IMG/VR virus record: IMGVR_UViG_3300017963_000357
Span: 1 to 48,605 of that record
Source: a virus
Direction: 5' to 3' (one strand)
Length of the DNA: 48,605 nt
The notes beneath the pieces were generated by a model. It made no database searches. It saw only the letters and a program-made list of their open reading frames with translations, and was not told the DNA's origin. The position numbers and the translations under genes were made by a program. Positions 7,071-34,100 of the stretch are shown piece by piece; the stretch's first letter is position 1; each line of letters opens with the position of its first letter.

Positions 7071-10000
7071 CTAAAGAGAAAGGGTGTTGCGCCGCATTTC
7101 TCGTTTGAGAGCGCGACCGAGTTGTCTACCAGCCCTGTCATCAACACGCGATGTTGATGTGTTGACTGTTACGTTGATGTCTCCGAAGTTAGAGACGGGA
7201 CCGCCCTCTTGACGGTATATTGGTTGCACGCCAGCATTCATTGCTTGCAGCTGCGTGTAGAACTTCCGTGATGCTCGGGGATTCATTACGACTTCCCCTG
7301 GAGTTAACATGGCGGGAACCGTATCGGTCCCCTTTGGAACAAAGCCACCACCCGCAAGATAGCGAGCCCTGACATTGCGTCCAATCTGAGCGTTCCCAAC
7401 TTGCGATGTTGGCACGGTGGGGAATTGAATGTTCCCAGCCGCTTGCCCGACCGAGGTGACAAGGTTTAACATACCCTGCAACTGCTGATTTGTGTTCGCA
7501 GTCGTTTGTTCGACGGTACCCATTGTCGAGTTCAATTGGGTTGTCGCTTGTGTTGTGTTACCAGCTTCTGTTGTGGCATTCTTCAGTTCCGTATCGATAC
7601 CCTGCGCACCAGCCGCCCGTTGCTCTGTTGTAGCTGCACCTTGTTGAATTAGTCTTCCTAATTCAGCAGCCGACCTTGCGAACGAGGCTTCTGTGTTTCT
7701 GATCGTGGTATCGAGGACAGTTCTTTGGATGACGGACAGGCTGGCAAATAAGGCTTGGTAATCGTTGTCCAGCTTAATAAGGCTGGCAGACAAGTCCGCA
7801 GCTGTCTTCGTCCCGGCTGTTGCCGTGATGTTGGCAGCTGTTTGTGCAAGCGTATCCAATTCTGTTCGGGCACCAGCAATATCAAACCCCTGCGTTGAAC
7901 CACCCGGTGTCAAGAAGGCAGCGGAACTAATACCTGCGGCGACAGGGACGGTTACCACTTTGGCAGCTTGCTCCCAGAAGGTAGCCCCCTCCTTCATGAT
8001 CTCATTGATTTCCCTCGTGGTGTTGTGCAAGTCTTCTGTTGCCGACTTCTGAGCTTCGATGTTCTCTGCCACTTTGATTTGGCGAGCCTTCTCTTCGTTG
8101 ACAAACGAAACCAAGGCGTCGACTGTGCCAGTCCCACCTAACCCAAACTGAATCTCTTGTAACTTGGATCGATCGATGCCTTCACTCAGCCCTCGGTTAA
8201 CAGCCTTCGTGACCGCGTCTGCGATCCCGAGTTCAATGTCGATGTTCAGCTTGTTCAAGGAACGACCACTGAGAACCACGTCAACATCAATACCCGCCGC
8301 ACGCTGTGATTGGAGGGCACTGTTGATGTCTCGATTGAACTCAGCAAAGCTAAAGATGTCGTTTGCTGTTAGCTTGGCATTATCAGGTAGAGCCAGACCA
8401 CGTATGGTACTCAGACCTTGCTGAATCTGCTTTGTTATGTCCGATCGCTGCGTGAAGTTATCGGTGACATTCAATTTGTCTTGGAGATCAAGAACGTTCT
8501 TTACTGCCTTCTGTAAGCTTTGGAGACGACCTTGCTCGGCTTCCTGCTCGGCTGCCAGTTGTGCGGTACGCTGTCTCTGCTTGCGAGCCTGTGTCTCTTC
8601 GGCTGCGATTAAGGCGCGTTGGGACGAGAAGCGAGACTGAGCAATGCGGTTTTGGAGTGCCAGGTTGCCAGTTGTTTGGGCTGCCGCCGATGCCTCGCGC
8701 AAGAACCCGTCCGCTCGCTGCTGGACACGCAGAGCTGCTGATACGTCTTCTTGTGTTCGTGCTGACGCGAGAGCCTCTGACGCGGAGCGGGCGAGGGATA
8801 GCCCACGCTGCTCGGCAGCAGAGGCTTGTGCAATCGCTGAGCGACGCTTGTTGAGAAACTTGAACTCGTCGTCGGCTAAGGCTGCACGGCGATCCGCCGC
8901 ACGGAGGTCTGCGTCAAGAGCAAGCTGTGTTGCATCTTCACGTTCGCTTCCGAGGTTACTAACTAGGTCTTTGTTGGCTTGTACGATTGCGTCGAGTACG
9001 GACTTACTGTCGGACTTGATTTTAGCGTTGGTTTCTTCCCAATTCTTGATACGCTGTTGTAGAATCCCACGCTCGTCGCGTATGTACTCAGAGATACCTG
9101 AGAATCGTTCACGAATACTTTGCCGTTCAATCTCTAACAGTTGCTGACGAACGCTGCGTGCTTGTTGAACACGTGTGGCACTCGCTTGCTCAGCGGACTT
9201 TATTGTTTCTGCAAGTGCCTGCTTTCCACTCTCTTCCGCAGCCGCCTCAATTGCTAAATAGGCAGCAACAATTCCGCCAGCGACAGCAACCACTGTCCCA
9301 GCTGCAATTGTCACGGCACCAAACGACTGTGCGAGGAGGAAGTTCTTAATGGCTACCGCGCCAGCGGCACCACCATAGATACCAAGAACTGTGCCAGCTG
9401 TTATGACAACTGGGATCATCGCTTTAATTACAATTGTTGCGTTGTCGCCAGCGTTTGTGAGTTCAAGGAAACGGCGCGTGGCTGAGAGTATAGCCTGCCC
9501 CATGTCAACCGTCAGTGCGTTGCTGAGTTGGTTTAGTTGCCGCTCGACTCGTTCAGCATCAGTCTCGATTCTGATTTCCAACTTCTCTTGCACAAGGCTC
9601 TGTGAAACGTTGTTGATGCTTTCCAGGTTGCTTGCGAGTTGTCTTCCATCATCGCGCGCCAAGACTAAGGCACCCGCCAACCCACGAACACGCGGGATCA
9701 ACTTCGCCATCTCACTGGCACTTCCGCCAGATGCTTCAGAGATCAACTTTAGGGCGCCCTCAAGACCAAGGGCTTCGATGGCGACTTCACCAGAGGCAAA
9801 GCCAGCTTTGTCCAAGACTTCAACCATCGCATCCGTCGGCTTGATGAACGCGTTAATAACACCACGGAGTTGGGTTGCAGCCTTCGCTGTGTCCACACCA
9901 TTGATCGTCAATGTTGCGAACGCGGCAGACAACTCTTCAACGGACCCACCCGCTTCTTTGAACAGAGGAGCAACGGTGCCGAAGCTGTTAGACAGCTCAT

Positions 10001-10790
10001 CGATACGTGTACGACCAAGTCGAACCGTCTCGAAGAAGATTGCAGCAAGCTTATCAGTGTCACGTGAGGCTAACCCAAAAGCATTTATCGTGCCGGTCAT
10101 CAACTCAACTGTTGAGCTAAAGTCAGCAACACCGACCTTCGCCAAACGCGCAGATGCTTCGAGCACACCAATCTGATTGGAAGCCCCCTGAATCTGATTT
10201 GAGATCACCTGATAGAGACCTTCACTTACCTCACCGAGAGGGAGATTGAAGGCATCAGCGATTCCTCGAACAGACTCTGCCGCTCTATCGAAGCTTCCAA
10301 AGGTTCCTTGTGAAATCGTCTGGATTTCACTGATCTGGAGTTGGAACTCTTTCGCACTCGCGGTTGCCTCTCCAAATGTGTTGATGAGTGTGTTGATGCC
10401 GCGAACAATCAGCTGCGTGCTAATGATACGTCCCAGTAGTTGGAACCCTACCGCCATGCTCGTGATGGCGCCACCAGCTGATTGGGCGAGCTTTGCCATG
10501 TCTCTGGTGGTTGTTCCGATAGCACCGCCGAGCGCCCCGAGCCGACCTCGGAGACCACCAACTTGCTTACCAACCTTCTCGGCGGCGTCAGCGGCTTTGA
10601 CCGCTCCGACGACGAACTTGTTTCCGATCGCTCCAGCGACTTGGTTGGATTGCCCGGCTAACGGCTTCATCTTCCCTGCGAGTGTATCGAGGGAGGACCC
10701 CAATCCTTTGAGGCGCGCATCGAGGGCATCAACAGCACGGAGTGCTTCAGTGACATCGATACCAAGATTCTGCCTAATTTCGTCAGCCAT
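7071..10790 (-). CDS. Tail tape measure protein
   Basis: The longest gene in the window (1239 residues). The N-terminal third has the alternating-helix pattern of TP901-type tape measures (for example QISEIQTISQGTFGSFDRAAE and VELMTGTINAFGLASRDTDK). Hydrophobic segments at about 455-520 fit the usual membrane-active stretch. Residues about 520-800 are Gln/Ala/Arg-rich coiled coil. It ends in a basic tail (LGRALKREMRRNTLSL). Length sets tail length in this family; roughly 1200 residues implies a long tail. It follows the G/T chaperone pair, the standard order in siphoviruses, and overlaps the upstream gene by one base. Confidence 0.95.
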   Translation of the reverse strand: MADEIRQNLGIDVTEALRAVDALDARLKGLGSSLDTLAGKMKPLAGQSNQVAGAIGNKFVVGAVKAADAAEKVGKQVGGLRGRLGALGGAIGTTTRDMAKLAQSAGGAITSMAVGFQLLGRIISTQLIVRGINTLINTFGEATASAKEFQLQISEIQTISQGTFGSFDRAAESVRGIADAFNLPLGEVSEGLYQVISNQIQGASNQIGVLEASARLAKVGVADFSSTVELMTGTINAFGLASRDTDKLAAIFFETVRLGRTRIDELSNSFGTVAPLFKEAGGSVEELSAAFATLTINGVDTAKAATQLRGVINAFIKPTDAMVEVLDKAGFASGEVAIEALGLEGALKLISEASGGSASEMAKLIPRVRGLAGALVLARDDGRQLASNLESINNVSQSLVQEKLEIRIETDAERVERQLNQLSNALTVDMGQAILSATRRFLELTNAGDNATIVIKAMIPVVITAGTVLGIYGGAAGAVAIKNFLLAQSFGAVTIAAGTVVAVAGGIVAAYLAIEAAAEESGKQALAETIKSAEQASATRVQQARSVRQQLLEIERQSIRERFSGISEYIRDERGILQQRIKNWEETNAKIKSDSKSVLDAIVQANKDLVSNLGSEREDATQLALDADLRAADRRAALADDEFKFLNKRRSAIAQASAAEQRGLSLARSASEALASARTQEDVSAALRVQQRADGFLREASAAAQTTGNLALQNRIAQSRFSSQRALIAAEETQARKQRQRTAQLAAEQEAEQGRLQSLQKAVKNVLDLQDKLNVTDNFTQRSDITKQIQQGLSTIRGLALPDNAKLTANDIFSFAEFNRDINSALQSQRAAGIDVDVVLSGRSLNKLNIDIELGIADAVTKAVNRGLSEGIDRSKLQEIQFGLGGTGTVDALVSFVNEEKARQIKVAENIEAQKSATEDLHNTTREINEIMKEGATFWEQAAKVVTVPVAAGISSAAFLTPGGSTQGFDIAGARTELDTLAQTAANITATAGTKTAADLSASLIKLDNDYQALFASLSVIQRTVLDTTIRNTEASFARSAAELGRLIQQGAATTEQRAAGAQGIDTELKNATTEAGNTTQATTQLNSTMGTVEQTTANTNQQLQGMLNLVTSVGQAAGNIQFPTVPTSQVGNAQIGRNVRARYLAGGGFVPKGTDTVPAMLTPGEVVMNPRASRKFYTQLQAMNAGVQPIYRQEGGPVSNFGDINVTVNTSTSRVDDRAGRQLGRALKREMRRNTLSL

Positions 10791-12113: not shown

Positions 12114-13208
12114 TTACGCAGTTACCCGCGTAACGGTCGGCTTCGTAGCCTTGCAACGACCCGTGAAGGAAATCGTCGCGTCACTGATGTCGAACTCAGC
12201 GGTGTCCGCACGGAAGTCCGGGAACACAGTCACTTCGTTCTGGGTTGCCCCACACGACGGTGCGTGGGTCATCTGGATGTCAACCGCGTACGGCTCACAA
12301 AGGTCAGAAGACGAACTCACGAATTCGTCGGCTCCACCTTCGCCATACATGGCGTCGACCGGCGTGATAGCTTCGCCCGTGCCCGTGGTCACGAACTCAT
12401 ACACACCGTCAATTGTGACGTCCATCGGGACTTCGTCGTTCTCCTTGACTGTGTCCAGAATACCGCGATCGAGCAGATACTCGTAATCCTTGCTTCGCGT
12501 GTACGTCAGGTTACCATCACCAATCTTGATTGCCACTTCGATCGGAGCGAACGTAATGACATCGTTGTCGGACGGGGTAGCTGTCGCACCCCAAGCCGGT
12601 GTGAACGTGATGTTGGTCGTCTGGTCGACGAATTCACCTTCGGTCGTGGTTGTGATGGCTTCACTCCCACCACCCGTCAAGCCCGTACCATCGACAGTGA
12701 TCGCCGGATGGTTCTTCTTCTCAACGCTCGTGCCGTCAAACGTGAAGGTCGTGGGATTGGCGTCAGCCGTACCCGCACCCGCTACTGTGACGTCGCCAGC
12801 AACGTATGTTGCCACTGCCGCGAGGGCTGTGTCAACCGCAGTCTGGATCGCAGCCGGAGCCGCGTCGTAGGCGATGTTGGCGGTCGTGACCGCAGCAGTC
12901 TCACCGTACAATTGAATGTCGAGTGTGAAGTTACCAGCCGTCGCACCACTGGCGCTGAGGCTTTGGACTTCATTGACACCAGCACTGTTCGTACGTCCAG
13001 TTACGACGTAGACCTGGGTATTGCCAGCGGTGCTGACAGTAAAGCGAGCACCGATGGGGACTTTGTCCGTATCAGTGGTATTCAAAACGAGTGTGTCGAC
13101 ATCCACGTCGGTGTCGGAAGCGCCCGGCGTCGCTTCATTGATTGCGCCAGTGCCGGACAAACCATCTTTGATGATGATGGTAGCATCTCGAAGTTCGATG
13201 CGTGCCAT
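12114..13208 (-). CDS. Major tail (tube) protein with inserted decoration-like domain
   Basis: A 364-residue protein (MARIELRDATIIIKDGLSG). The first 40 and last 150 residues look like a tail-tube core (EVAIKIGDGNLTYTRSKDYEYLLDRG and DISDATISFTGRC). Residues about 40-200 are Thr/Ala/Val-rich beta sequence and may be an Ig-like insertion. The position between neck/terminator genes and the G/T chaperones, and the strong terminator right after it, fit an abundant tube subunit. A GGAG Shine-Dalgarno sequence precedes the ATG. Confidence 0.8.
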   Translation of the reverse strand: MARIELRDATIIIKDGLSGTGAINEATPGASDTDVDVDTLVLNTTDTDKVPIGARFTVSTAGNTQVYVVTGRTNSAGVNEVQSLSASGATAGNFTLDIQLYGETAAVTTANIAYDAAPAAIQTAVDTALAAVATYVAGDVTVAGAGTADANPTTFTFDGTSVEKKNHPAITVDGTGLTGGGSEAITTTTEGEFVDQTTNITFTPAWGATATPSDNDVITFAPIEVAIKIGDGNLTYTRSKDYEYLLDRGILDTVKENDEVPMDVTIDGVYEFVTTGTGEAITPVDAMYGEGGADEFVSSSSDLCEPYAVDIQMTHAPSCGATQNEVTVFPDFRADTAEFDISDATISFTGRCKATKPTVTRVTA

Positions 13209-18961: not shown

Positions 18962-20356
18962 TTAGCCAAGCATCACCACACCGAGATTGGTGTCGAGGGT
19001 CTGGACACCAGCGAGCATGTCCAAAGTCACCTTTGTACCAGCGGAAGCGATGTCATACTGCATCGCAATTCGCATCGGTACATCCTTGTAGACCGCTTGG
19101 AATGCACGGACGCCAAGGTTCGACGCGGGCAGAGCCAGGGGACGTGTCACGAGAGCCAGAGCTTCGCGATGGAAGCAGAAGTTGTAACCGCCAGCTGGGC
19201 CTGGGAAGCAAGCCTGGTTGTTGATCACGGCAACTTCCAGAGGTCGGTCAAGGAGCAGGTAGCGATCGCTCGCCCCACCGTCCCAAGACTCGATCACTGT
19301 GTAGGTCCGGCGAGCCGCACCTACACCGATAGCCAACAGTTGCCCGACGCGCGGGTACTTACCAGCGGTGTAGCCATCGACCAGAATCTGCTTACCTTCA
19401 CCAGCGGCGTAACCAGCAGCGTTCTTGATCGCACAAGCCTTGTAGTACGTGATCGCGGCACCGGAGGCGGTACCACTTACGAGACCTGCATCCAATGTCA
19501 CATCGGGACCAGCACCAGTGGCTGTGATGTAACGGGGCTGCTCGTCGCCAACAATCGTTGTGAAACAACCGACGGTTACGCCAGTCGTGTTCGTCACGGC
19601 AATGTTGGTCTCGCCAGCAGGCTCAACAGCTGTCGTTGTGGTCGAAGCGGTGTCCGCTGTCGTCGCCACGACGAGAGGCGTGTTCTGGTCCATCCAGGTG
19701 TTCATACCAAGGATACGACCGAGGCTGGCTTCACGAAGAGCCGTGCCGTCGTCACCCTTCTTGTCGGCAGTCACGAATGTCTGGTCCTTCAAGAGGGCGG
19801 TTTCACCGGAGGGACTCACAACAAGGTTACGCCCAGCGGCGCCAGCCTTGTTCTCGATCAGCTTCTGGCGTGCCGCCAACACTGTGTCGTAAGACGTTGT
19901 GCTGGACAACAGACCCAAGCCACCGACGGTGTTCGCGAGGAACTCATGGACTTGACCCAAGAGAACACGATCGATACCGTTGGCAATCGAGATCATCGCA
20001 GGTTCCAAGTACATCTCGACGAGGTCCTGGAACGACTTCGAAGCCTCTCCGTCTTTGATGACGAAGTGCTCGTAGAAATACTGGTTCAGCGGAACCGCAA
20101 CGTTTGTCGCTACCGCATCTTGTGCCACAACGGCTGTCGCATCGTCACGTCGACGGATGCCGAACTCACCAGGTCGACGTGTATTCACAACGTCACCATA
20201 GCTGGCTACCATATCCTCGAAGTCACGGTGGACCAAGTTGGCCATCACCATGTTCTCTGTCAGGATCATCAGACCCTCGTTGGCCCAGTGCTCCGGGATA
20301 AGTGCGTCATTGTCATTCGCGTACAACGAAACGACGGGATTCAAGTAAGTAGTCAT
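18962..20356 (-). CDS. Major capsid protein (P22-like coat)
   Basis: The start at MTTYLNPVVSLY (20356) has GGAG 10 bases upstream; an ATG 11 codons earlier lacks one. The product is 464 residues. EHWANEGLMILTENMVMANLVHRDFE and the FQDLVEMYLEPAM helix follow the P22 coat family layout. Residues about 235-300 are Thr/Gly/Ala-rich beta sequence and look like an insertion domain. The scaffold gene lies directly upstream, and both share the N-terminal peptide YLNPVVSLY. Confidence 0.9.
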   Translation of the reverse strand: MTTYLNPVVSLYANDNDALIPEHWANEGLMILTENMVMANLVHRDFEDMVASYGDVVNTRRPGEFGIRRRDDATAVVAQDAVATNVAVPLNQYFYEHFVIKDGEASKSFQDLVEMYLEPAMISIANGIDRVLLGQVHEFLANTVGGLGLLSSTTSYDTVLAARQKLIENKAGAAGRNLVVSPSGETALLKDQTFVTADKKGDDGTALREASLGRILGMNTWMDQNTPLVVATTADTASTTTTAVEPAGETNIAVTNTTGVTVGCFTTIVGDEQPRYITATGAGPDVTLDAGLVSGTASGAAITYYKACAIKNAAGYAAGEGKQILVDGYTAGKYPRVGQLLAIGVGAARRTYTVIESWDGGASDRYLLLDRPLEVAVINNQACFPGPAGGYNFCFHREALALVTRPLALPASNLGVRAFQAVYKDVPMRIAMQYDIASAGTKVTLDMLAGVQTLDTNLGVVMLG

Positions 20357-20424
20357 GTCCTTATTTCTCCATAAGGTAGGGTTACGCACCGCGTGGGTGC
20401 AGGTCTGTCAAAGTTCAACCCCGA

Positions 20425-21267
20425 CTATTGAAAAGCCCTTCGGGCGCGACCCACTTTGGCTGGGTCCTTGCGTCTCAATTCCTGGTACTGCTCGGGTGTC
20501 AGCTTAGAAATATCGATTTCCCCGTTGGCACCCGGTGTGACACCACCGGTAGTGGAAGCCCCGCCAACGCCCGCAGCCACATTCGCAAGAAATAGGTTGG
20601 GGTCAATAACTTTCAGACGCTCGACGGCGTCATCGGGGGTTCGGTTGGAGATGTAAGCTTCGCCAGCTTCATTCACATCTGGCAAGTCTACTCTCGGGAC
20701 AAGCTCACCGTCGATCGGATTCCCCTTCTCGTCAACTGGGGGCACCAACTTGGTGTGCTTCTCCAATATCGTTACAATCTGGGATGCTTTATAAGCACCG
20801 TGCTTGCTCGCCGCATCTGTCAACGCTCGTTCGATTGTTGACCTGGTGTAGCGGTTCTCGTAGTCCTGTGCTCGCTTCTCCAGTTCTTTGAGCTTGTTCT
20901 CGTACTGTTCTCGAATCTCACGCTTTTCGACTTTGGCTTGTTCTTCCTTCGTCCGGTTCTGACGTTGGAGTTCTTCAAGCCGCTCTGTGAGTGAATCGCG
21001 TTCTGATTCTGTGAGTCCCTTCGATGCGAGGAGGTTTTGATAGTCCTTCTCGATCTTCTTGAACTCTTCCTGTCGGGCTTTCCGGTCCTTTGCGAGTCGT
21101 TCTTGAACGTACTGGTTCAACTGCTCTTGCGTGAAGACTTTGTCTTGCTGCTGGGCTGCTGCGGCTGCGGCATCGGCAGCTGTCTTCTGTAGCGCGGCTT
21201 GTGCGGCGGCTACGTCGGCGTCAGTTGATTCTCCCTCGTACAGTGAAACGACCGGATTCAAATACAT
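20425..21267 (-). CDS. Capsid scaffolding protein
   Basis: A 280-residue, strongly helical, charged protein between portal/adaptor and capsid. After MYLNPVVSLY comes an Ala/Gln-rich stretch, a long coiled coil (about residues 45-145, KEEQAKVEKREIREQYENKL) and a C-terminal DISKLTPEQYQELRRKDP segment ending in basic RARRAFQ, as in P22-like scaffolds that bind coat through a basic helix-loop-helix. It should be absent from mature virions. Confidence 0.9.
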   Translation of the reverse strand: MYLNPVVSLYEGESTDADVAAAQAALQKTAADAAAAAAQQQDKVFTQEQLNQYVQERLAKDRKARQEEFKKIEKDYQNLLASKGLTESERDSLTERLEELQRQNRTKEEQAKVEKREIREQYENKLKELEKRAQDYENRYTRSTIERALTDAASKHGAYKASQIVTILEKHTKLVPPVDEKGNPIDGELVPRVDLPDVNEAGEAYISNRTPDDAVERLKVIDPNLFLANVAAGVGGASTTGGVTPGANGEIDISKLTPEQYQELRRKDPAKVGRARRAFQ

Positions 21268-21336: not shown

Positions 21337-21900
21337 CTATGAGACTCGACGAATCTTGATTGCGTCATTGTCTCGGATGAAAGGTTTGAGTATTCTCCAC
21401 GCAAGTGCGTTGGGAACCATGTTAATAAGATGCTCGATCGGCACTTGGCTTCGGTTGTACGTGGCTCTCGCGGAGGCGATGCCCATACTGGAGATACCGA
21501 GGTTCTCAAGTTCGATCTCAACATCTACGCCATCCAACAATGAATGAGCGATTTCATAGCAGGCCCGTCGAATGTCTTCGGGCACTACTGTGTCTTGTCC
21601 TCGTGGGAATGCGAGCGGCTGTGCGAGATTTGCTGCTTGTAATTCCGCAATCGTTATACACCCCTCATCCAGGGCACCCTCTGAGCTGCACGCATTACAC
21701 GAGTTCGTTGTATTGATCAAGGTGTAGACCGTAGCCTTGTCACCTTTGAAGTTCAAGTAGTCGATGATTCTTGTTGCGGCGATCAACGCCTTTGTTCTGT
21801 CGGTAGGTACCGCATTCGTCCACGCATGTTCATGCAGGCGCGATGCGAAGTAGTCTTCGGCTTCGGCGAGCGTTCCGTAGTAGGTCTCATTGATAGCCAT
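21337..21900 (-). CDS. Head-tail adaptor-like protein (DnaT-like phage family)
   Basis: A 187-residue protein (MAINETYYGTLAEAEDYFASRLHEHAW). The opening, with an aromatic-rich helix then W, and the RACYEIAHSLLDG helix fit the phage family often named 'DnaT-like', believed to act as head-tail adaptors. It follows the portal with a one-base overlap. NSCNACSSEGALDEGC gives a Cys cluster of unknown use. Confidence 0.65.
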   Translation of the reverse strand: MAINETYYGTLAEAEDYFASRLHEHAWTNAVPTDRTKALIAATRIIDYLNFKGDKATVYTLINTTNSCNACSSEGALDEGCITIAELQAANLAQPLAFPRGQDTVVPEDIRRACYEIAHSLLDGVDVEIELENLGISSMGIASARATYNRSQVPIEHLINMVPNALAWRILKPFIRDNDAIKIRRVS

Positions 21901-23735
21901 TACTTATTCTCCGTTCGCTTGCCCTTACCTCGTACACGCTTCTTCCTATCAGCTTGGAGGTCTGGGTTATTCGCTTCCTCTCGCTCCTTCGAGGCGCCAC
22001 CACTCCCATCATCGAAGTCCTTCAGCCCCCGTGCGGCTAGGTTGTCGTCCTCACCGTCGTCTTTACTGCTTTGTGCTTCTGCGATACGTGCGAGTCGGTC
22101 CGCGTGGTCGATCCTTGCTTTCTTCACTTCTTCTTCACCCTCGAACCCGAGTGCCAGGTTAGCGGTGACTTCACCAACGGCTCCACGTTCCAACGCCTCG
22201 AAGATGACGTCCGGATCACTTGTCGTAAACGCAGCTGTCTCGATCTCTCGGAAGATTGTGTTCATGTCATCGACGCTGATCTTACCGCCCAGGAGGACAG
22301 TGATGATCGTCTTCCACAGTTCCTTGCGGGCGGTGGAAGACGGTGTTTGCTTGATCAGGTCAACAAGACCAGCCGCTTCGTCGATTCGTTCTTGGTCGCT
22401 GCGGAGGGCGTACCGCTCGGGGTACTTGATGACTGCAATGTTACGCGCGGCGACTTCAACGCTCTCGTAGCTGGCCCAGAAGTCAGCAACACGCTGCTCT
22501 GTTTGTTCGAGCACCAGCCCAATGAATGAAAGACCCGCTTCCAAACCTTGGTTGTCGAACGACTTCGATGCCGCCGACTGACGGGGCGCCGCTGTATTCA
22601 CAACCGCGAGGTTGATGAGTTGTCGGATGTTGGCTTCCAGCTTCTCTTGAAGCTTCATGGAGCCCAGTAGGGGTTCACTTGACGGGTGGATAAACCCAGG
22701 TCGGTCTGTATTGCGGTCGTACTTGATGCCGTGCTCAAGCCCGATCTTCATTTCCTTTAGGTGCGTGTGCTGCCCACCCGCTTCGGCTGTGCCGTCTGGG
22801 TTGACATTGTGTTTCAGGTGGTCGCCGACCGCTCGCAGGTCTTCTTGCTGCGAGAGGAACGGGAAGTTGACTTTGTATGCAAACGCCACGTCGCGGGATG
22901 ACATGTTCATGAGAGCGATCTGGTGACGGTACACATCTCTCAGAAGGCTGTCGCCGATGTCCGGCATGATGAACGGGATGCGGTTCAAGTTCAGCACGCG
23001 TGGTTCGGTAACAATGTCGCCGTTCGCATTCACTGTGTCGCCATTCTCATCGAAGAACTGCAAGCGAACGAGACCGTCAACAGGATCGATCCACAAGAGG
23101 CGGTACCGCTCAAACGTTTGGATCGGTAGGAGCGTCGCATCATCGTAGTCGAGACACGTGTCACGTAGTAAGATGGACTGGAATTCACTCGGGTCTTCTG
23201 GTCTCGACAGTCTCCATGACAGGATGTCTTCGACCTGGTACATGTAGATGTAAGGTCGGAAGTTGGCGGCTCGAATATCAGCGAGGGTTGGGAGTGATCC
23301 ATCATCACGACGAATATCTGGGCTGTCCACATACAAACCACATCGCCCCATCACGAGTAGTTCGGTCAGGACATCTTTCCCGAAGAACCCATTCATTGTG
23401 CTACCACGAAGGTCAACGCCGTTATCCAGCCCGGCTACGGCACGGTGATACGAGGCACTACCGTCGCGACGGACAATCGAGTGCATCCGTTGGAAGATAC
23501 TGTTTCGAACGTCGTTGACGGCTGCTTTGGCAAACGTCGGAGCGGGTGCCATGTCCTTCCGCGCCTGGAAGTCAAGGGCATCCTCTTGACGGTCGATCTT
23601 TGTCATGTACTCTTCGACGAACTCATCTCCGCCTCGGTACGTATATCTCCACTTTCTCCACATGCCTTGATCTGTGAGATAGGCAGGGTGGCGCGCATCG
23701 ATAATCCGACGCTTTGTCGTTAGGTTGGTTGGCAT
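21900..23735 (-). CDS. Portal protein
   Basis: A 611-residue protein placed after terminase and before adaptor/scaffold. It opens MPTNLTTKRRIIDARHPAY and has VNDVRNSIFQRMHSIVRRDG, LTELLVMGRCGLYVD and IALMNMSSRDVAFAYK, the pattern of DUF4055-type portals. The C-terminus is a charged, disordered tail (about 550-611). The portal forms the dodecameric DNA channel of the head. One-base overlaps on both sides indicate coupled translation. Confidence 0.9.
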   Translation of the reverse strand: MPTNLTTKRRIIDARHPAYLTDQGMWRKWRYTYRGGDEFVEEYMTKIDRQEDALDFQARKDMAPAPTFAKAAVNDVRNSIFQRMHSIVRRDGSASYHRAVAGLDNGVDLRGSTMNGFFGKDVLTELLVMGRCGLYVDSPDIRRDDGSLPTLADIRAANFRPYIYMYQVEDILSWRLSRPEDPSEFQSILLRDTCLDYDDATLLPIQTFERYRLLWIDPVDGLVRLQFFDENGDTVNANGDIVTEPRVLNLNRIPFIMPDIGDSLLRDVYRHQIALMNMSSRDVAFAYKVNFPFLSQQEDLRAVGDHLKHNVNPDGTAEAGGQHTHLKEMKIGLEHGIKYDRNTDRPGFIHPSSEPLLGSMKLQEKLEANIRQLINLAVVNTAAPRQSAASKSFDNQGLEAGLSFIGLVLEQTEQRVADFWASYESVEVAARNIAVIKYPERYALRSDQERIDEAAGLVDLIKQTPSSTARKELWKTIITVLLGGKISVDDMNTIFREIETAAFTTSDPDVIFEALERGAVGEVTANLALGFEGEEEVKKARIDHADRLARIAEAQSSKDDGEDDNLAARGLKDFDDGSGGASKEREEANNPDLQADRKKRVRGKGKRTENK

Positions 23736-24151
23736 TATGAGCCCTCCCCACTGTTTAAGTACGAGATTGCGTTGTACAACAACTCAGTCCCATCTCGAAA
23801 GAGCCCCAACCCATGGTTACACCGATTCCATAGGAGCCCACGTACCTCACCCGTTTGATGGTCATGATCAATGTAAAATGCTTTCTGCTTTCCACCTGGT
23901 TTCTTTGCCCCACAGATCGCACATCCATAACCTTGTTTGGCCAGCATGGTGTCATAGTCTGCAATGGTGATCCCATACTTGCTTTTTATATTCGCTGCAC
24001 GTTGTTTGTGTCGATTCTTTTTGTAGTAGTCACGTACGTACATATTGTTGCAAGTTCGGCAACGTGGTCCCCGTCCCGATTTCATCCGCTTGTTACGCAT
24101 GAACTCCTCGAAAGACTTAGTTTCACCACATAGCGTACACGTTTTCATCAT
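23735..24151 (-). CDS. HNH endonuclease, recombination endonuclease VII family
   Basis: A 138-residue protein. N-terminal CTLCGE with CRTCNNMY forms a zinc-binding pair, and YGCAICG, DHDHQTGEVRGLLWNRCNHGLG is the endonuclease VII / HNH core with its catalytic DHDH. It sits between terL and portal, its start nested in the terL stop (ATGATGA). Possible roles are packaging-linked cleavage, branch resolution, or a free-standing homing nuclease. Confidence 0.85.
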   Translation of the reverse strand: MMKTCTLCGETKSFEEFMRNKRMKSGRGPRCRTCNNMYVRDYYKKNRHKQRAANIKSKYGITIADYDTMLAKQGYGCAICGAKKPGGKQKAFYIDHDHQTGEVRGLLWNRCNHGLGLFRDGTELLYNAISYLNSGEGS

Positions 24152-25848
24152 AAGAAAGTCCGGATATCGGTTCCACGCACATAACTCGCTGCGAATGGTA
24201 ATGCAATCTCAGCGTAGTTCAAGGAATGAGCATAGTGGTCAGCTCTGTTCCCTGGCTTCAAGTACGTTGCGACCGGGTTATCATTCTCGTCCTTCTTGTA
24301 CGTACGCACAAGCGTCTTGAGATGGTCCCTCATCTCGATGTTGATGTCTCTTGGCAAGAGCATCCGTGGTTCAGCTGTCTTGTAGCGACCCAGGGTGATG
24401 TCGAGCCAACTTGTTCGATCTACTGTTGCGACTTCCGTTCGCATGTCGTCCATCTCCGTCACTGCCACTTCTTTCTGCGGCACTCCTCGGCGGTAGCGGC
24501 ACAGCGTGACATAACCCGGGAAGGACCGTGCGAACTGTCTGGCGTCGTGCGTGTTGGGGTCGGCGTCGACCACACAGTGCATTACTTGCCACGTCCGCAT
24601 CATCTCGCGGAGCCTGCCCCATCCGTTGTCGGCTTGCACGTTGAACTTGCCGAACCACAACATCTTGCCGATGGCGACTGCATTCAAATCTGGTCCAAAC
24701 GCTTCGAAGAACCATTCAATCACCACTACATGTAACCAGTTGCCTTGATCCACACCCATCGTGATCATGCGTCTATGAGCAGCTTCACTCTGGATTGGCG
24801 GCATGTCGTTCTTCGAGTGCCCTCGAATGCAGTTATCGATTTGACCATCGATGATCTGCCCGCCTTCTGGCACGAACGGCTTGCCGAGCTTCGATTTGTG
24901 GAACTCAGCCTCGGCTCCTTCGTCGCCCATCCCACGGAGGTGGGCAATTACAATCTCGCCCGGGGTGACAGTGAAGCTGTACAGCTGATTGATGTGGAAT
25001 CCTCGGTTGTCCATGTTGGCGTCGGGATTCATCGGAACCCACTTCGCCTTGTTGAGGAAGTTCGGCTTGTCTTCGTGATTCAGCTTCCCACCACACTCCT
25101 TGCATTTCAGATAGGACTCGTGACATCTTGGGTCGCTCACGCCCTCTCCGATGATCTCCATACAGTCTGGCCAGATCAGTTCAGTCATTCGCGAGCAACA
25201 AGGGCATTCGAAAACGAAGTGTTCTTGGCTGCTTTCGTCGTAAAGGAGACTGACTCCGTGATCAGGTATCGTCGGTGTCGAGATAGCCCAAATGTGCTTC
25301 TCTAATTGCCCCGACAACCGCTCAAAGGCTAACCAGATTTGACTCTGGTCCATTTCGTCGACTTCGTCAAGGATCAGGTCCGAGACAGGGATCGACTTCA
25401 GGTTGCTATCGCCACGGCTTCCTCTGATGTACAGGGTGGTGCCATGGTGAGTTTGTTTCAGCTTCTCGCTGTTCGTGTTTGTGAAGAGGTTCTTCAGGTA
25501 CTGGCTGTGCGTCAGGGCCGGTCCGAATCGACCCTTTGAGAAGTCACCTGCGTTGACCGTCGTTGGCAACACATACAAGACATCTCGTTTGAGCACGTCG
25601 AGTGTGAAGAAGGCGCGGTTGATGCACACTTCCGTCAACCCTGTTTGTGCCGCCTTCATCGCCACGTTCTGGTGTGCCGTGGAGTCGTGGACTCCGCGTG
25701 CCCAGGGATGATACTTGAAACTGAATGGTCCCGGGAAAGGCACTCCCATCACCCGCCTCGCCACCGCCCATCGAGAGCAGGTGGTGAGTGTCCTGGACTT
25801 GAATCCAGAGCGGATGGCTTCTTGTACGTCTGTGAGATCAATTGGCAT
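24148..25848 (-). CDS. terL: Terminase large subunit (GpA-like)
   Basis: A 566-residue packaging motor. The ATPase part has a deviant Walker A (KAAQTGLTE, 65-73) as in lambda gpA-type enzymes, and Walker B LILDEVDEMD (158-167). A zinc-binding insert follows, with cysteines at 215, 217, 218 and at 249, 252. The nuclease domain has MGVDQGNW and CVVDADPNTHDA as likely metal-binding acidic motifs and ends with NRADHYAHSLNYAEIA. GpA-like enzymes usually cut cos-type sites. Confidence 0.93.
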   Translation of the reverse strand: MPIDLTDVQEAIRSGFKSRTLTTCSRWAVARRVMGVPFPGPFSFKYHPWARGVHDSTAHQNVAMKAAQTGLTEVCINRAFFTLDVLKRDVLYVLPTTVNAGDFSKGRFGPALTHSQYLKNLFTNTNSEKLKQTHHGTTLYIRGSRGDSNLKSIPVSDLILDEVDEMDQSQIWLAFERLSGQLEKHIWAISTPTIPDHGVSLLYDESSQEHFVFECPCCSRMTELIWPDCMEIIGEGVSDPRCHESYLKCKECGGKLNHEDKPNFLNKAKWVPMNPDANMDNRGFHINQLYSFTVTPGEIVIAHLRGMGDEGAEAEFHKSKLGKPFVPEGGQIIDGQIDNCIRGHSKNDMPPIQSEAAHRRMITMGVDQGNWLHVVVIEWFFEAFGPDLNAVAIGKMLWFGKFNVQADNGWGRLREMMRTWQVMHCVVDADPNTHDARQFARSFPGYVTLCRYRRGVPQKEVAVTEMDDMRTEVATVDRTSWLDITLGRYKTAEPRMLLPRDINIEMRDHLKTLVRTYKKDENDNPVATYLKPGNRADHYAHSLNYAEIALPFAASYVRGTDIRTFL

Positions 25849-26674: not shown

Positions 26675-26983
26675 TTACACGTCATCGGGAATTCCAGTTA
26701 GTTGTGGGGGCCAATGCCTTCGTGGACAACCCTCACTGACAAGTTCTAGTTTGTTTAAGCCGCCTGGTACCCGCTTCAGGAAGCAGCCACATTCGAGACA
26801 CTTACCTCGCTCGGCTGAGATACGCTGGTACCGGTTGCTTGGGCACTTTGTGCAGAAGTCAAACAGAGCCGCAATCAATGTCGGCGACCGCTTGGGCATT
26901 CCTGCGGCGACCCAAGTTGCATACGCGACTGTCGCGTTCTTGATCTGGGTCAGGATCGATACTGAATTCTTTGGACAACACAT
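26675..26983 (-). CDS. Small zinc-finger protein
   Basis: A 102-residue protein with FCTKCPSNRYQ, KCLECGCFLKR and a final CPRRHWP. That is the C-x2-C ... C-x2-C-x-C ... C-P-x3-W pattern of a common small phage zinc protein. The N-terminal half is a helical VAAGMPKRSPTLIAALFDFC segment. The start overlaps the preceding stop (TGATG). It is presumably a binding or regulatory protein; the role is unknown. Confidence 0.7.
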   Translation of the reverse strand: MCCPKNSVSILTQIKNATVAYATWVAAGMPKRSPTLIAALFDFCTKCPSNRYQRISAERGKCLECGCFLKRVPGGLNKLELVSEGCPRRHWPPQLTGIPDDV

Positions 26984-27729
26984 CAGAGATCATAGTCAGG
27001 TCTGGGTGTGGGGTCATCCGGGACAACAACCACTGGCTTCTTCATGTGTGGTTTGATTCGCTCCATCGGGGTGAAGCCTCGGAACACCTTGACCGTCTCC
27101 CCTTCGCTTCGGATAACAAACCAAGGAATGCCACTGCCAATCGGGCGGGCGTCTTTGTCCAACGCTGTGATTTGGGCTTTGATCTCTGGGTAATCCGAGG
27201 TGCTAAACACGTAGACTTTGTAGCCTGCATCCCTGAGTTCTTGAACGATTGGGTACATCCGTTTGCAATGGATGCAGCCATCACCGGTCAAGAGTACAGC
27301 ATAATTCCCATCCATATCAACGATGGGCGGGACGTCGTGGTCTACAGTTCGAACTTTCCTATTTGCCGCCTCTCGCGTCTCCGTCGGAGTGCTTCCATAA
27401 AGACGCGGTCCGACACTGTCCCATCCTTGTCCTTCTCGGGTCCACTCGGCGGACTGGGCTGGGCAGGTTCCGGGACAGGCTTCGGTTTCACTGGTGCTCG
27501 TTCCAGCCGCTCCAACGCTTGTCTCGTCCGTAGGTCGAGTGCTTCGTTGGCTAGGTCGACAGCAGCGTTGATTTCGTCTTGCCAATCGACGGGTCTCTTG
27601 CCACACATCGCCCGCCAAACTCCAATCAACCAGGCTTGGAACCGAACCCACAGTCTCATTCGCGGAACTAGTCTCATGTGTCAACCCCTGTTGCGCCAGA
27701 ATGGCGATCAATAGTAATGCAAGTCTCAT
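26983..27729 (-). CDS. Exported thioredoxin-fold protein, N-terminal extent uncertain
   Basis: The last 110 residues are thioredoxin-like: YAVLLTGDGCIHCKRMYPIV carries a CxxC active site, then VYVFSTSDYPE and GIPWFVI with the expected cis-proline. The start at 27729 has GGGGAG at the right distance and encodes a signal-like peptide (MRLALLLIAILAQQG). The roughly 115 residues between look like out-of-frame sequence and overlap a plausible gene at 27342-27677. A short form from the ATG at 27315 is possible but lacks a Shine-Dalgarno sequence. Confidence 0.65.
   Translation of the reverse strand: MRLALLLIAILAQQGLTHETSSANETVGSVPSLVDWSLAGDVWQETRRLARRNQRCCRPSQRSTRPTDETSVGAAGTSTSETEACPGTCPAQSAEWTREGQGWDSVGPRLYGSTPTETREAANRKVRTVDHDVPPIVDMDGNYAVLLTGDGCIHCKRMYPIVQELRDAGYKVYVFSTSDYPEIKAQITALDKDARPIGSGIPWFVIRSEGETVKVFRGFTPMERIKPHMKKPVVVVPDDPTPRPDYDL
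27342..27677 (-). CDS. Basic helical protein overlapping the thioredoxin-like frame
   Basis: A 111-residue frame with normal-looking protein composition: basic/aromatic N-terminus, helix DEINAAVDLANEALDLRTRQ, a proline linker VKPKPVPEPAQPSPP and a basic end (EALRRRRERRQIGKFEL). AGGGG lies 8 bases before the ATG. It is entirely inside the longer thioredoxin-like frame. Its more natural composition makes me think it is the coding frame over this stretch. Function unknown. Confidence 0.5.
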   Translation of the reverse strand: MRLVPRMRLWVRFQAWLIGVWRAMCGKRPVDWQDEINAAVDLANEALDLRTRQALERLERAPVKPKPVPEPAQPSPPSGPEKDKDGTVSDRVFMEALRRRRERRQIGKFEL

Positions 27730-27739
27730 GTGTCTCCCC

Positions 27740-28735
27740 TTACCAAACGTAGTCGAGCCGACTGCGTCGAGGATAGCCTCTGTAGTTTGAGATGGCGTAA
27801 CTGTCGCCAAAGCTCAGCATGTATTCAATTGTGTCTGGGTCTACCCAGAACGAGCCATCGGGCTGATTCCAACGCTTCGGACCTTTGATCCACTTCTTAC
27901 CCCAGGAGTTGATGACCAAGCCACCGTGGCGTCGGCTCAGGGTGTCCGTCCCTGCCAGGAGCATCGCGTGGTACCACTTCTCGCTGATGGGCTTTGCAAA
28001 GCCGTCCTCATCGCGTTCGTTCGAGAACCCCTGATCCGAACACAGGATGATTGGGTACCCATTCGACGTGGCGTCACAGGCTTCGTCCCATGTCTTGACA
28101 ACGGCAGCTGTCCTGACTGGGTGCTCCTTGCACAGTGAAATCAATTCCTCCGGGACGCCGCCGCCCCACGTCGTGCATTCGTTGCACTTGTGCGCCCATG
28201 CGCGGGCTTTCAGTCCATCGTATGTTGTGAAGTCGAAGTCACCGTAGGCTTGGCGGAGCAGACTACCGTAGTGCATACACCAATCGGCTGCCCATTCCCC
28301 TGCACAGCCATCCCTGAAGGGGAGGTTACCGCCAGCAATCTGAACTCTCGCACCAGCGTGAATCACTTCGGTCGCGGCTTTACCCGCCCACCGCTCCAAG
28401 CGGCGAAGCGAGTACATCTGCACGCACGTCAGGACGTCAATCCCGAGTCCGTACGCCTGGCTCACGCAGTCGCCGATCTTTTGATCATGCGGCACGAGCG
28501 GGGCTTTTGTTGCTCGCTCCAGGTATTTCCATAAGAGAGCAAGCTTCCGTCGACCTGTCCGCTGCAAAGCGTAGTTGAATGTTGCGAACTCGGGTCGGTG
28601 CTTGGCTGGTCCGGGTCGCCAGCCGCCATCAATCGGTTTCTTGGATCGCGTTGCCTCTGCAAGTAACTGCCCGGGGGACATTGCGCCAGCGACGAGTGTG
28701 CCACCAGCAAGGCTTAAAAACGATCTGCGATCCAT
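27740..28735 (-). CDS. Papain-like (C1-type) cysteine protease with Tat-type signal
   Basis: A 331-residue protein. The N-terminus MDRRSFLSLAGGTLVAGAM has a twin-arginine motif and a hydrophobic core, so export in folded form is likely. The catalytic pattern of papain enzymes is present in order: oxyanion Gln85 and nucleophile Cys90 (QKIGDCVSQ), His256 (WYHAMLLAG) and Asn276 in INSWGKKW. Many other cysteines suggest disulphides. It lies in the late operon between exported proteins and a thioredoxin-like gene. Possible roles are lysis, envelope protein cleavage or virion use. Confidence 0.85.
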   Translation of the reverse strand: MDRRSFLSLAGGTLVAGAMSPGQLLAEATRSKKPIDGGWRPGPAKHRPEFATFNYALQRTGRRKLALLWKYLERATKAPLVPHDQKIGDCVSQAYGLGIDVLTCVQMYSLRRLERWAGKAATEVIHAGARVQIAGGNLPFRDGCAGEWAADWCMHYGSLLRQAYGDFDFTTYDGLKARAWAHKCNECTTWGGGVPEELISLCKEHPVRTAAVVKTWDEACDATSNGYPIILCSDQGFSNERDEDGFAKPISEKWYHAMLLAGTDTLSRRHGGLVINSWGKKWIKGPKRWNQPDGSFWVDPDTIEYMLSFGDSYAISNYRGYPRRSRLDYVW

Positions 28736-28762
28736 AACCCTCTCCTCTACTCGGTCAGAAGG

Positions 28763-29560
28763 CTATTTCACCTCCTCACGATCAGCAAACTGTTGCAGTC
28801 CCTTCGACACCGTCGTCCACACTTTGGAGTGGGACTCGATTGTCGGAAGCTGACCTGCGTCAAACATTGTTCGTAGCTCCTCGGCGAGTTTATCGAGGAA
28901 CGGGTCCCAGTGTACTTTGTTGGCGCCAAGAGCGTCAGCATTCGATTCCTTTGTCGCGGACATGATCTGTGCGACATCGGAGAACGCGCCACTCTCAATT
29001 ACCATCGCTAGGGTGCTGAATGACTGTTGGAGTTTCAACGCATCGTCGCGCGCCGTCGGGGACTGCACGTCTTCACACCACGTGATTACGCGTCCGAGAA
29101 GGCTGTCCGGCTCCACCGGAGGCTTCGGAGGCGTCGGCGGCTTCGGAGGCTTCGGTGGTTTGGGCGGCGCGGGCGGTGTTCGCTGCTCGACGCGGATGAC
29201 TTTGGTCTTTACATCAGACTTGTCGGCAATCGCACACGAGAAGATGAACAGGTACTCAATCGGTTTGTCGCCAGTGGAGGCAGTGATGATTCGTCCTTCG
29301 TTGAAGACGCGGACAACCGAAGGTTCGGGGATGATGCGAAGATCGAACCCGTTGCCAATGCTGTCGCTTAAGTCAATCACAATCATGTCGCCGATGAACA
29401 CCGAGTCGGGCGCATCAACAATCACTTGTGGCGTCCCTTCCGTTGCCTCTTCCGGATCATTGAACACAGCCGATGGGCTGTAGTCGATTGCCGGAAAGTC
29501 GTCGGCGCCGGTCGTGGTCGTCATCAAGAACACAGCAGTACACAAGATGTACCTAATCAT
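28763..29560 (-). CDS. Exported PKD-like protein with proline-rich linker
   Basis: A 265-residue protein: signal peptide MIRYILCTAVFLMTTTTGA, a beta domain about residues 45-130 (VDAPDSVFIGDMIVIDLSDS, KPIEYLFIFSCA) resembling PKD/Ig modules, a linker of PPKPPK/TPPKPP repeats (about 132-150), and a helical C-terminal domain. It presumably acts in the periplasm or on the surface. Location just before the papain-like protease suggests a joint late function. Confidence 0.8.
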   Translation of the reverse strand: MIRYILCTAVFLMTTTTGADDFPAIDYSPSAVFNDPEEATEGTPQVIVDAPDSVFIGDMIVIDLSDSIGNGFDLRIIPEPSVVRVFNEGRIITASTGDKPIEYLFIFSCAIADKSDVKTKVIRVEQRTPPAPPKPPKPPKPPTPPKPPVEPDSLLGRVITWCEDVQSPTARDDALKLQQSFSTLAMVIESGAFSDVAQIMSATKESNADALGANKVHWDPFLDKLAEELRTMFDAGQLPTIESHSKVWTTVSKGLQQFADREEVK

Positions 29561-32821: not shown

Positions 32822-33411
32822 ACACATGGTTTACGTCCGATCTGCACTTCGAGCACGAGCGACTCATCAATCTGGGTGGGCGCCCGTTCGAGTCCGTCGA
32901 CCATTGGAACGAACACATCCTCGACGCGATCAACTCAAGGGTCATGAGGGCGGACCGGTTGTTCATCCTTGGAGACTTCGCGTGGCACCGCCCTGGTTAC
33001 TGGCGTCAACAGATACGTTGTAGGCACGTTGAACTTATATTGGGCAACCACGACAACGAGAACAAGTGCCGGAAGGTCTTCGGAGGGTCCTGCTATCGAC
33101 AAAGAATGACCAAGATGAACGGAGTGCGCGTCTTTATGAGTCACTTCCCGAACGCGTTCTGGGACTTGAGCCACCGTGGGTCGCTGCATTGTTATGGACA
33201 TACACATGCGCAACGAGAAGACACCCTCGACACAACATGGCCAGAACGACGCAGTATGGACGTTGGTCCTGACAATGCGGCTCGTCTGACCGGCGAGTGG
33301 CGCCCCTTCAGTGGGCAGGAGGTTATTGAGCGGCTGATGGCTCGGAAGGGTCATGATTTGCCAGAGTTCTATCACGAGTTTCAGAGAAACCTTGCAGAGG
33401 AGCGATCATGA
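32818..33411 (+). CDS. Calcineurin-like metallophosphatase
   Basis: Start MNTWFTSDLHFEHERL at 32818 (ATGA overlap). All metallophosphatase motifs are present in order: D8-x-H10, GD53, GN77-H-D79, SH109 and GH128-T-H130. The 197-residue size fits small phage and bacterial members. It should bind two metal ions and hydrolyse phosphoesters. The substrate is not predictable; its 4-base coupling to the Thg1-like gene suggests RNA-end chemistry. Confidence 0.9.
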   Translation: MNTWFTSDLHFEHERLINLGGRPFESVDHWNEHILDAINSRVMRADRLFILGDFAWHRPGYWRQQIRCRHVELILGNHDNENKCRKVFGGSCYRQRMTKMNGVRVFMSHFPNAFWDLSHRGSLHCYGHTHAQREDTLDTTWPERRSMDVGPDNAARLTGEWRPFSGQEVIERLMARKGHDLPEFYHEFQRNLAEERS

Positions 33412-34100
33412 AAGACCTTGGCGACAGGATGAAAGAGAACTACGAGAGCCGTGCGAAGTTCTGCCTCACGCGGAGGACGCCGGTCATCATCCGGATAGAC
33501 GGGCGCGCCTTCCACACATTCACGCGTGGCTTCGATCGTCCCTTCGATCAACGCCTCATCAACGCGATGGTGCATGCTACCAAGGAACTCTTGGCGGACG
33601 CCCAAGGCGCCAAGCTGGCCTACACCCAGAGTGATGAGATCAGCGTGGTGTTGACGGACTACGACACACTCCAGACGGACGCGTGGTTCAATTATAGCGT
33701 GCCTAAGATATGCAGCAATGCCGCCTCCATAGTGACGCGAGCCTTTAACAAGGCGATCGTGTACCCGGAGGCTGCCACGAAGTACCCGTCGGGCGCCACG
33801 TTCGACGCGCGGTGCTTCAACATCCCGAAGGAAGAGGTGGCCAACTATTTCCTCTGGAGAGGTTTGGACTGGAAGCGTAATTCCCTCTCGATGTTCGCGA
33901 GTTCGTTCTTCTCGCAGAAGCAGCTCCATGGGAAGCACGCGTCGCAAGTCCACGAGATGCTTCATGAAATTGGAAAGAATTGGGCAACCGATTTGACAGA
34001 GCAGGAAAAGAATGGTACATTTGTAAGTAAGCGTGGCCCGTTTCATGTCTACCCGGACTACGAGGCCATAGAGTGGGTTCTTGAGGAGACGATGCCGTGA
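33408..34100 (+). CDS. thg1: Thg1-like 3'-5' RNA polymerase (tRNAHis guanylyltransferase family)
   Basis: A 230-residue protein with the Thg1 signature: RID31GRAFHTFTRGF and AKLAYTQSD76EISV. Asp31 and Asp76/Glu77 match the metal-binding carboxylates of the palm domain. FDARCFNIPKEEVANYFLWRG and WKRNSLSMFASSFFS follow, as in the family. Thg1-like proteins add nucleotides to RNA 5' ends, to tRNAHis G-1 or to repair truncated tRNAs. No tRNA gene was found in the window. Overlaps of 4 bases on both sides indicate a tight operon. Confidence 0.93.
   Translation: MKDLGDRMKENYESRAKFCLTRRTPVIIRIDGRAFHTFTRGFDRPFDQRLINAMVHATKELLADAQGAKLAYTQSDEISVVLTDYDTLQTDAWFNYSVPKICSNAASIVTRAFNKAIVYPEAATKYPSGATFDARCFNIPKEEVANYFLWRGLDWKRNSLSMFASSFFSQKQLHGKHASQVHEMLHEIGKNWATDLTEQEKNGTFVSKRGPFHVYPDYEAIEWVLEETMP

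Follow-up and report, generated by a model that had tools for sequence, protein, structure and literature searches.

The window analyzed here is a 48,605-base IMG/VR virus record (IMGVR_UViG_3300017963_000357), and our subject is a nine-residue peptide, YLNPVVSLY, that stands near the very start of two of its virion proteins. The head module lies on the minus strand in the gene order terminase, portal, head-tail adaptor, scaffold and capsid (Table 1). Profile searches confirm the identities of the capsid and scaffold that an earlier sequence-only reading of this DNA had assigned. The capsid has both the P22 coat profile and an HK97-type fold; a Foldseek search with its AlphaFold2 model returned the Sf6 and P22 coat proteins with a best E-value of 3e-17.

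The scaffold open reading frame reads MYLNPVVSLYEGEST and opens with M-YLNPVVSLY, while the capsid frame, taken from the ATG at 20356 on the minus strand, reads MTTYLNPVVSLYANDNDALIPEHW and opens with MTT-YLNPVVSLY. Across the nine shared codons there are four base differences, all of them synonymous (TAT/TAC, CCG/CCC, TCA/TCG and CTG/TTG). The sequence-only reading had reported this shared N-terminus, and the translated frames and codon comparison bear it out in every detail. No further stop-to-stop segment of at least 60 amino acids in the six frames of the window matches YLNPVVSLY at five or more of the nine positions. The match between scaffold and capsid is beyond chance, because a within-phage match recurs across the family with different peptides.

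Capsid and scaffold leaders change together

Relatives were gathered by five IMG/VR scans with the capsid or capsid alignments and one with a DNA pattern. Fourteen loci, which were named phages or overlapped other fetched loci, were left out beforehand. Among the 223 loci examined, the capsid was located in 220 (not in L025, L036 or L046). Removal of 6 of these without a usable upstream open reading frame and of 97 duplicates at 95% identity left 117 non-redundant contigs, and three more without room for a leader were removed to give 114 phages. This set keeps L137, which we read as leaderless, and L017, whose true first exon lies before an intron. In L100, L126, L160 and L162 an insertion after the capsid leader puts the automatic leader position off and lowers the scores. 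Leaders were scored by their best ungapped BLOSUM62 match, with 10,000 shuffled capsid-scaffold pairings as the null. Among named phages, a tblastn search with the capsid gave 38 records, each with less than 60% identity and with less than 80% of the query aligned, and one with the scaffold had no match. The peptide pattern and the capsid profile, each run against genome contigs, found no relative. A search for hosts via plasmids returned only distant capsid matches (Leptospira, Prescottella) and uninformative DUF6745 matches.

In L002, whose capsid is 94% identical over the part present, both proteins carry YLNPVVSLY, and in L014 (62%) the scaffold has LYPVISLY and the capsid TNPVVSLY. In relatives further away, the peptides look quite different from that of the window and again correspond within the phage: scaffold YLFVSQISCF and capsid YLCVAQVTCF in L018, SRLWYG and NRLWYG in L019, IFNLQVVLACF and LFNLQVVMACF in L025, YQIKWVG in both proteins of L031, and YLRTLR and VIRTLR in L054. 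Across the 117 contigs the leaders vary widely among phages yet agree between the unrelated capsid and scaffold of the same phage. The sequence-only reading had suggested following the peptide into related phages; the within-phage match is found there, but its sequence is private to each lineage, a feature that a single genome did not reveal.

Over the 114 pairs, the scores of capsid leaders against their own scaffold leaders sum to 3590, compared with 2005 ± 59 for shuffled pairings, the largest of which reached 2236. When the scaffold junction was placed by a rule blind to the capsid, which was possible in 108 of the 114, the own sum was 2508 against 429 ± 92 (largest 748), and 74 of the 108 pairs individually passed at 5%. 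Cross scores drop with capsid divergence, from 34.8 at 80–95% identity to 20.7 at 60–70% and 15.0 at 40–50%. A capsid leader scores on average 31.5 with its own scaffold leader, whereas it scores 11.5–14.9 with the capsid leaders of phages at 40–60% capsid identity, and for 113 of 114 capsid leaders the own scaffold is nearer than the median capsid leader in that range. Above 70% capsid identity, capsid leaders are more alike among themselves than to their own scaffolds. The own scaffold ranks in the top five for 73 of 114 phages and beats at least 95% of the scaffolds at 40–60% capsid identity in 86. The leaders are a case of coupled evolution of two non-homologous proteins.

One way to obtain two similar gene starts is by recent duplication, gene conversion or a signal at the DNA or RNA level, and the two genes do carry similar 27-base stretches. 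However, in 91 phages with a clear match, the codon is the same for 218 of the 540 identical leader residues, compared with 232.6 ± 10.7 expected from codon usage. Since copying or conversion would raise this agreement, selection acts on the peptide, as the sequence-only reading had argued from the four synonymous differences in the window. Recent copying and conversion are ruled out by this test, and we give next to no weight to a nucleic acid origin of the match.

The leader ends at a defined junction

Agreement between the two leaders of a phage is concentrated at their ends. Own-pair identity at the last three leader residues is 0.68, 0.72 and 0.58, compared with 0.39, 0.17 and 0.12 for other pairs; further from the junction it is 0.39–0.47 at positions 4–6, 0.19 at position 7 and 0.34–0.38 at positions 8–11. 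The last residue is Tyr or Phe in 100 of 114 capsid leaders and 79 of 91 scaffold leaders. The residue that follows is most often Ala in the capsid (A 59, D 28, E 9, V 8; n = 114) and acidic, Asp or Glu, in the scaffold (82 of 91). Moreover, the leaders sit exactly between the Met and the first residue, usually Ala, of leaderless homologues.

In both proteins of the window the leader is predicted to be disordered. The AlphaFold2 model of the capsid has a confident body (mean predicted local distance difference test score, pLDDT, 85.7) and a mean pLDDT of 47 over residues 1–10; that of the scaffold consists of long helices, with a mean of 52 over the same residues.

A cut at this junction would leave most scaffolds with a D/E start and about half of the capsids with an A start. 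Acidic N-termini can act as degradation signals in some bacteria, and the acidic scaffold start is a possible route for scaffold removal.

A Group I intron (Rfam RF00028) with an HNH-like open reading frame occupies positions 98–770 of L017, which is on the same contig as L003, and interrupts the capsid gene directly after the leader exon (MLNYLLQVSVTCFENDNDAFIPEL...). A second Group I intron (RF00028) at 5026–5242 of L017 lies directly ahead of a tail-protein reading frame. In L025, the first capsid exon (MNELFNLQVVMACF...) is split from the body by an endonuclease-like reading frame, with no Rfam match.

Leaders on further virion proteins

The leader is not confined to the scaffold and capsid. 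In the L022 phage (IMGVR_UViG_3300033149_000928), five proteins have an R.WYG ending near the N-terminus: with a slash marking the junction, these are the scaffold (DRSWYG/EGE), the capsid (SRSWYG/VND), a putative major tail protein (DRRWYG/AQIDLK), the tape measure protein (NRKWYG/GEE) and a fibre-like protein (RNWYG/VTI). A survey of the putative tail protein found a leader matching the phage's own capsid or scaffold in at least 14 relatives. For instance, L041 has PFLTVH/AP on the tail protein, RQFLTVH/TQ on the capsid and PWLCVH/AD on the scaffold, and L207 has PVLVCR/AR, PMLVLR/AN and LAVLVCR/DN, respectively. For 14 phages picked by eye, with the leader positions of L126 and L160 set by hand, the own tail-capsid sum is 331 against 189 ± 23 and the own tail-scaffold sum 343 against 213 ± 20, neither of which was reached in 10,000 permutations; L090 (against the capsid) and L131 are weak as single cases.

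On this protein the leader replaces the Met, and Ala comes next in 12 of the 14. Most homologues, including that of the window, are leaderless and start with MA[RQ]I[DE]L or similar. Among 65 phages scored on a capsid tree, the tail-protein leader, whose states were assigned by eye, switches no fewer than seven times and the capsid leader four times. The putative tail protein matches nothing in Pfam or PHROG and nothing convincing among PDB sequences, so that it is called 'major tail protein' from its place in the gene order.

These proteins bear on a second explanation, in which the leader guides procapsid assembly by a contact, homotypic or through a shared pocket, that scaffold and capsid make with each other or with the portal, and the copies are alike because they occupy the same site. 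Most phages indeed show the leader on exactly the scaffold and capsid, and of the nine long tagged records searched, the eight besides that of L022 showed no clear third bearer of the leader. However, the putative tail, tape measure and fibre-like proteins that carry the leader in some relatives are not proteins that one would expect to assemble with the scaffold, some lineages lack the leader in both proteins, and the AlphaFold2 model of the capsid, a monomer, shows no confident docking of the leader. We regard such a contact as improbable.

Lineages without the leader

In four lineages the capsid starts at the junction: L091–L093 (MANSLDAY), L102 (MANLLDAY), L137 (MALPPNTVDAF) and L034/L035 (MANSIDAF). 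The scaffold is also leaderless in three of the four, starting with MSTSEEVKK in L091–L093, MADDINNEN in L102 and MPDEDPPV in L137, where the start codons are our choice. Co-loss of the two leaders is suggestive; a sign test on the three independent pairs with support gives p = 0.5, and the events are too rare for a test.

In L034, at about 3985–4005, the scaffold stop codon TAG is in frame with the capsid start, at a distance of two codons. From this arrangement, a scaffold-capsid fusion made by read-through is conceivable.

A proposed removable leader handled by a common factor

We propose that YLNPVVSLY is a removable leader, or propeptide, handled by one common factor, most likely a host protease, and put the probability of this reading at roughly one half. 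That a common factor reads a removable leader is suggested by its presence on structurally different virion proteins, its change in step on them, the constraint at the junction, the predicted disorder and its replacement by a bare Met in leaderless homologues. The sharing, the joint change, the selection on amino acids, the junction and the disorder are computed results; the cut, the protease, its host origin and the timing are what we infer. A measured precedent comes from Staphylococcus phage 80α, in which the host protease Prp cuts capsid and scaffold between F and A in a leader common with ribosomal protein L27, according to the passages on Prp in PMC5744158 and PMC9405229. The scaffold, the capsid and, in some relatives, the putative major tail, tape measure and fibre-like proteins would all be tagged for the same factor. 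The leader may keep young subunits in a controlled state until a host-encoded protease cuts directly after its last residue, at Y/E in the scaffold and Y/A in the capsid. Removal around assembly would then yield the N-terminus that leaderless relatives make directly. As the specificity of the factor drifted the leader would drift with it, so that the tagged proteins of a phage would all change in concert. The sequence-only reading had offered a shared signal for binding the portal, a protease or each other; the signal stands and the protease fits best, while the leader on putative tail proteins disfavors the portal and mutual binding.

A host protease is our best guess since the searches turned up no likely gene for a leader protease that the phages have in common. 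The alternative is a protease encoded by the phage, as many phages carry maturation proteases and the window itself encodes a trypsin-like protein. However, the Trypsin_2 family occurs in only 7 of 26 related records, and the genes for Prp and for the S78 prohead protease were found in none of the 26, in searches that did not take other protease clans one at a time. Likewise, we found no gene family that each of the nine tagged genomes has and the leaderless records lack, although some of these are incomplete and distant homologues may have escaped detection. We judge the trypsin-like gene of the window unlikely to be the general leader protease and a phage-encoded enzyme very improbable overall.

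Several observations weigh against a removable leader cut by a host protease. The pairing is imperfect: 28 of the 114 pairs individually fail to beat 95% of distant scaffolds, although six of these (L017, L038, L070, L220, L229 and L234) were judged to have wrong or truncated upstream reading frames. Similarly, just 28 of 114 capsid leaders find no better match than their own scaffold, at least partly because close relatives share leaders. The similarity reaches about 11 residues, which is longer than many proteases read. In L034/L035 the pairing is broken, as the capsid is leaderless and the scaffold keeps a leader-like start, MVLDLYDLLVWAGDGE. The sequence-only reading had named in advance a relative without the match in one protein as the case that would refute it; this lineage is such a case, and in the other three leaderless lineages the match is missing from both proteins. 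A further set of points comes from the comparison with phage 80α. The leaders here differ from phage to phage far more than known Prp sites do, and neither the 114 capsid N-termini nor the 114 scaffold N-termini contain the Prp motif [DN]LQ[FLHYW]F. In the part of PMC5744158 that treats the 80α scaffold, the intact leader is essential and its cleavage is not, so a role of the leader other than proteolysis is possible.

The main rival to proteolysis is of this kind. The leader may be a recognition peptide, not necessarily cut, that marks newly made scaffold, capsid and tail proteins for one chaperone or assembly factor, which would bind it and organize the folding or delivery of these proteins. 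A common chaperone also explains the leaders on tail proteins, and one is proposed by the 80α authors as a reading of the essential scaffold N-terminus in that part of their study (PMC5744158). The leader is short, is predicted to be disordered, is found on proteins that self-assemble into large structures and matches over up to 11 residues, all of which would suit a chaperone. However, the match peaks over the three residues that end at the junction, as a cut site would, and leaderless homologues begin exactly there. In addition, recognition by chaperones is usually degenerate. We hold the chaperone to be unlikely, and the host protease remains our preferred reading.

Other features of the window

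Features of the window are collected in Table 1. The trypsin-like protein has an apparent signal peptide, and a protein search found relatives of it in 3 of the other 25 records; the gene for Thg1 (tRNA-His guanylyltransferase) adjoins it. Upstream of the terminase, three genes have secretion-signal-like starts, one of which begins MDRRSFLSLAGGTLVAGA; they are kept in five or six of the nine tagged genomes.

Table 1. Coordinates of the head module, the leaders and other features in the window.
Feature	Position	Strand	Evidence
Major capsid protein, 464 amino acids, P22-coat type	18962..20356	-	PF11651 (P22_CoatProtein), E-value 2e-29; best Foldseek matches Sf6 and P22 coat
Capsid leader YLNPVVSLY	20321..20347	-	Sequence; probable junction before GCG (A13, 20318-20320), where leaderless capsids start M/AN..
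Head scaffolding protein, 280 amino acids, N-terminal leader	20425..21267	-	PHROG 206, E-value 6.8e-12; AlphaFold2 long helices at residues 16-155, leader of low confidence
Scaffold leader YLNPVVSLY	21238..21264	-	Sequence; probable junction before GAG (E11, 21235-21237), from relatives
Head-tail adaptor	21337..21900	-	
Portal protein, without leader	21900..23735	-	PHROG 145; N-terminus inspected
Terminase	24148..25848	-	
Putative major tail protein, leaderless (M/ARIELRDAT)	12114..13208	-	Named by gene order only
Tape measure protein, leaderless	7071..10790	-	PHROG tape measure families, PF10145
Three genes upstream of terminase	26983..29560	-	No Pfam match
Thg1 gene	33408..34100	+	PF04446, E-value 2.8e-31
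Trypsin-like protease gene	34097..34936	+	PF13365, E-value 2.6e-14

Comparison with known systems

The phages resemble P22 and Sf6 in capsid family and fold and in encoding the scaffold in its own gene, upstream of that for the coat. Six named phages with P22-type coats (MaAM05, Galactica, phiSASD1, Kumao, Shaeky and Javan262), judged by eye, lack such a shared leader. In T4, the capsid targeting sequence is an N-terminal peptide on several virion proteins that targets them into the prohead core and is removed in maturation by the phage protease gp21. The likeness lies in an N-terminal peptide common to several proteins of one virion. Unlike in T4, putative tail proteins carry the peptide here, and no S78 protease gene was found in the 26 records.

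The closer parallels are to 80α and Prp. In both cases a leader is common to capsid and scaffold and ends in an aromatic residue followed by Ala in the capsid. 80α has no prohead protease, and here no gene of the S78 type was found in the records searched. The major tail protein of φ13 is said to bear the Prp motif, in the passages of PMC5744158 and PMC9405229 that mention it, and the leader here is found on putative tail proteins of some relatives. The L27 and 80α leaders, as given in those passages, follow MLxx(D/N)LQ(F/L)F'A or come near it (PMC5744158, PMC9405229), whereas the last residue of the leaders described here can be Y, F, G, R or H, and D or E mostly follows in the scaffold. Because none of the 114 phages has the Prp motif and the system is known here from the phage side only, we do not file it as a Prp system. 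Tentatively, and with considerable doubt, we suggest a class distinct from Prp, in which the leader is a private, fast-changing password for a host leader protease or chaperone gate that is yet to be recognized and differs per host. If so, the leader could record host specificity, such that the host might be read from it, and it might stop co-infecting phages from sharing assembly parts.

Our searches of open-licence literature turned up no earlier description of this system, and the pertinent results were confined to 80α/Prp and T4. Why the 80α capsid and scaffold carry a leader for a host protease was still unclear to the authors of the 2017 study, in the part that discusses it (PMC5744158). 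The present family offers a natural experiment on this question: in more than 100 phages, leaderless lineages included, between two and five proteins without homology to one another carry leaders that diverged together. This set makes the role of the leader testable and predicts cut sites residue by residue. The leaders point to an unknown protease or chaperone in the hosts of uncultured phages, and may serve as a host-linked signature for phages known from metagenomes. Set beside 80α and T4, leaders shared among virion proteins take a new form here, one that runs through a whole phage family.
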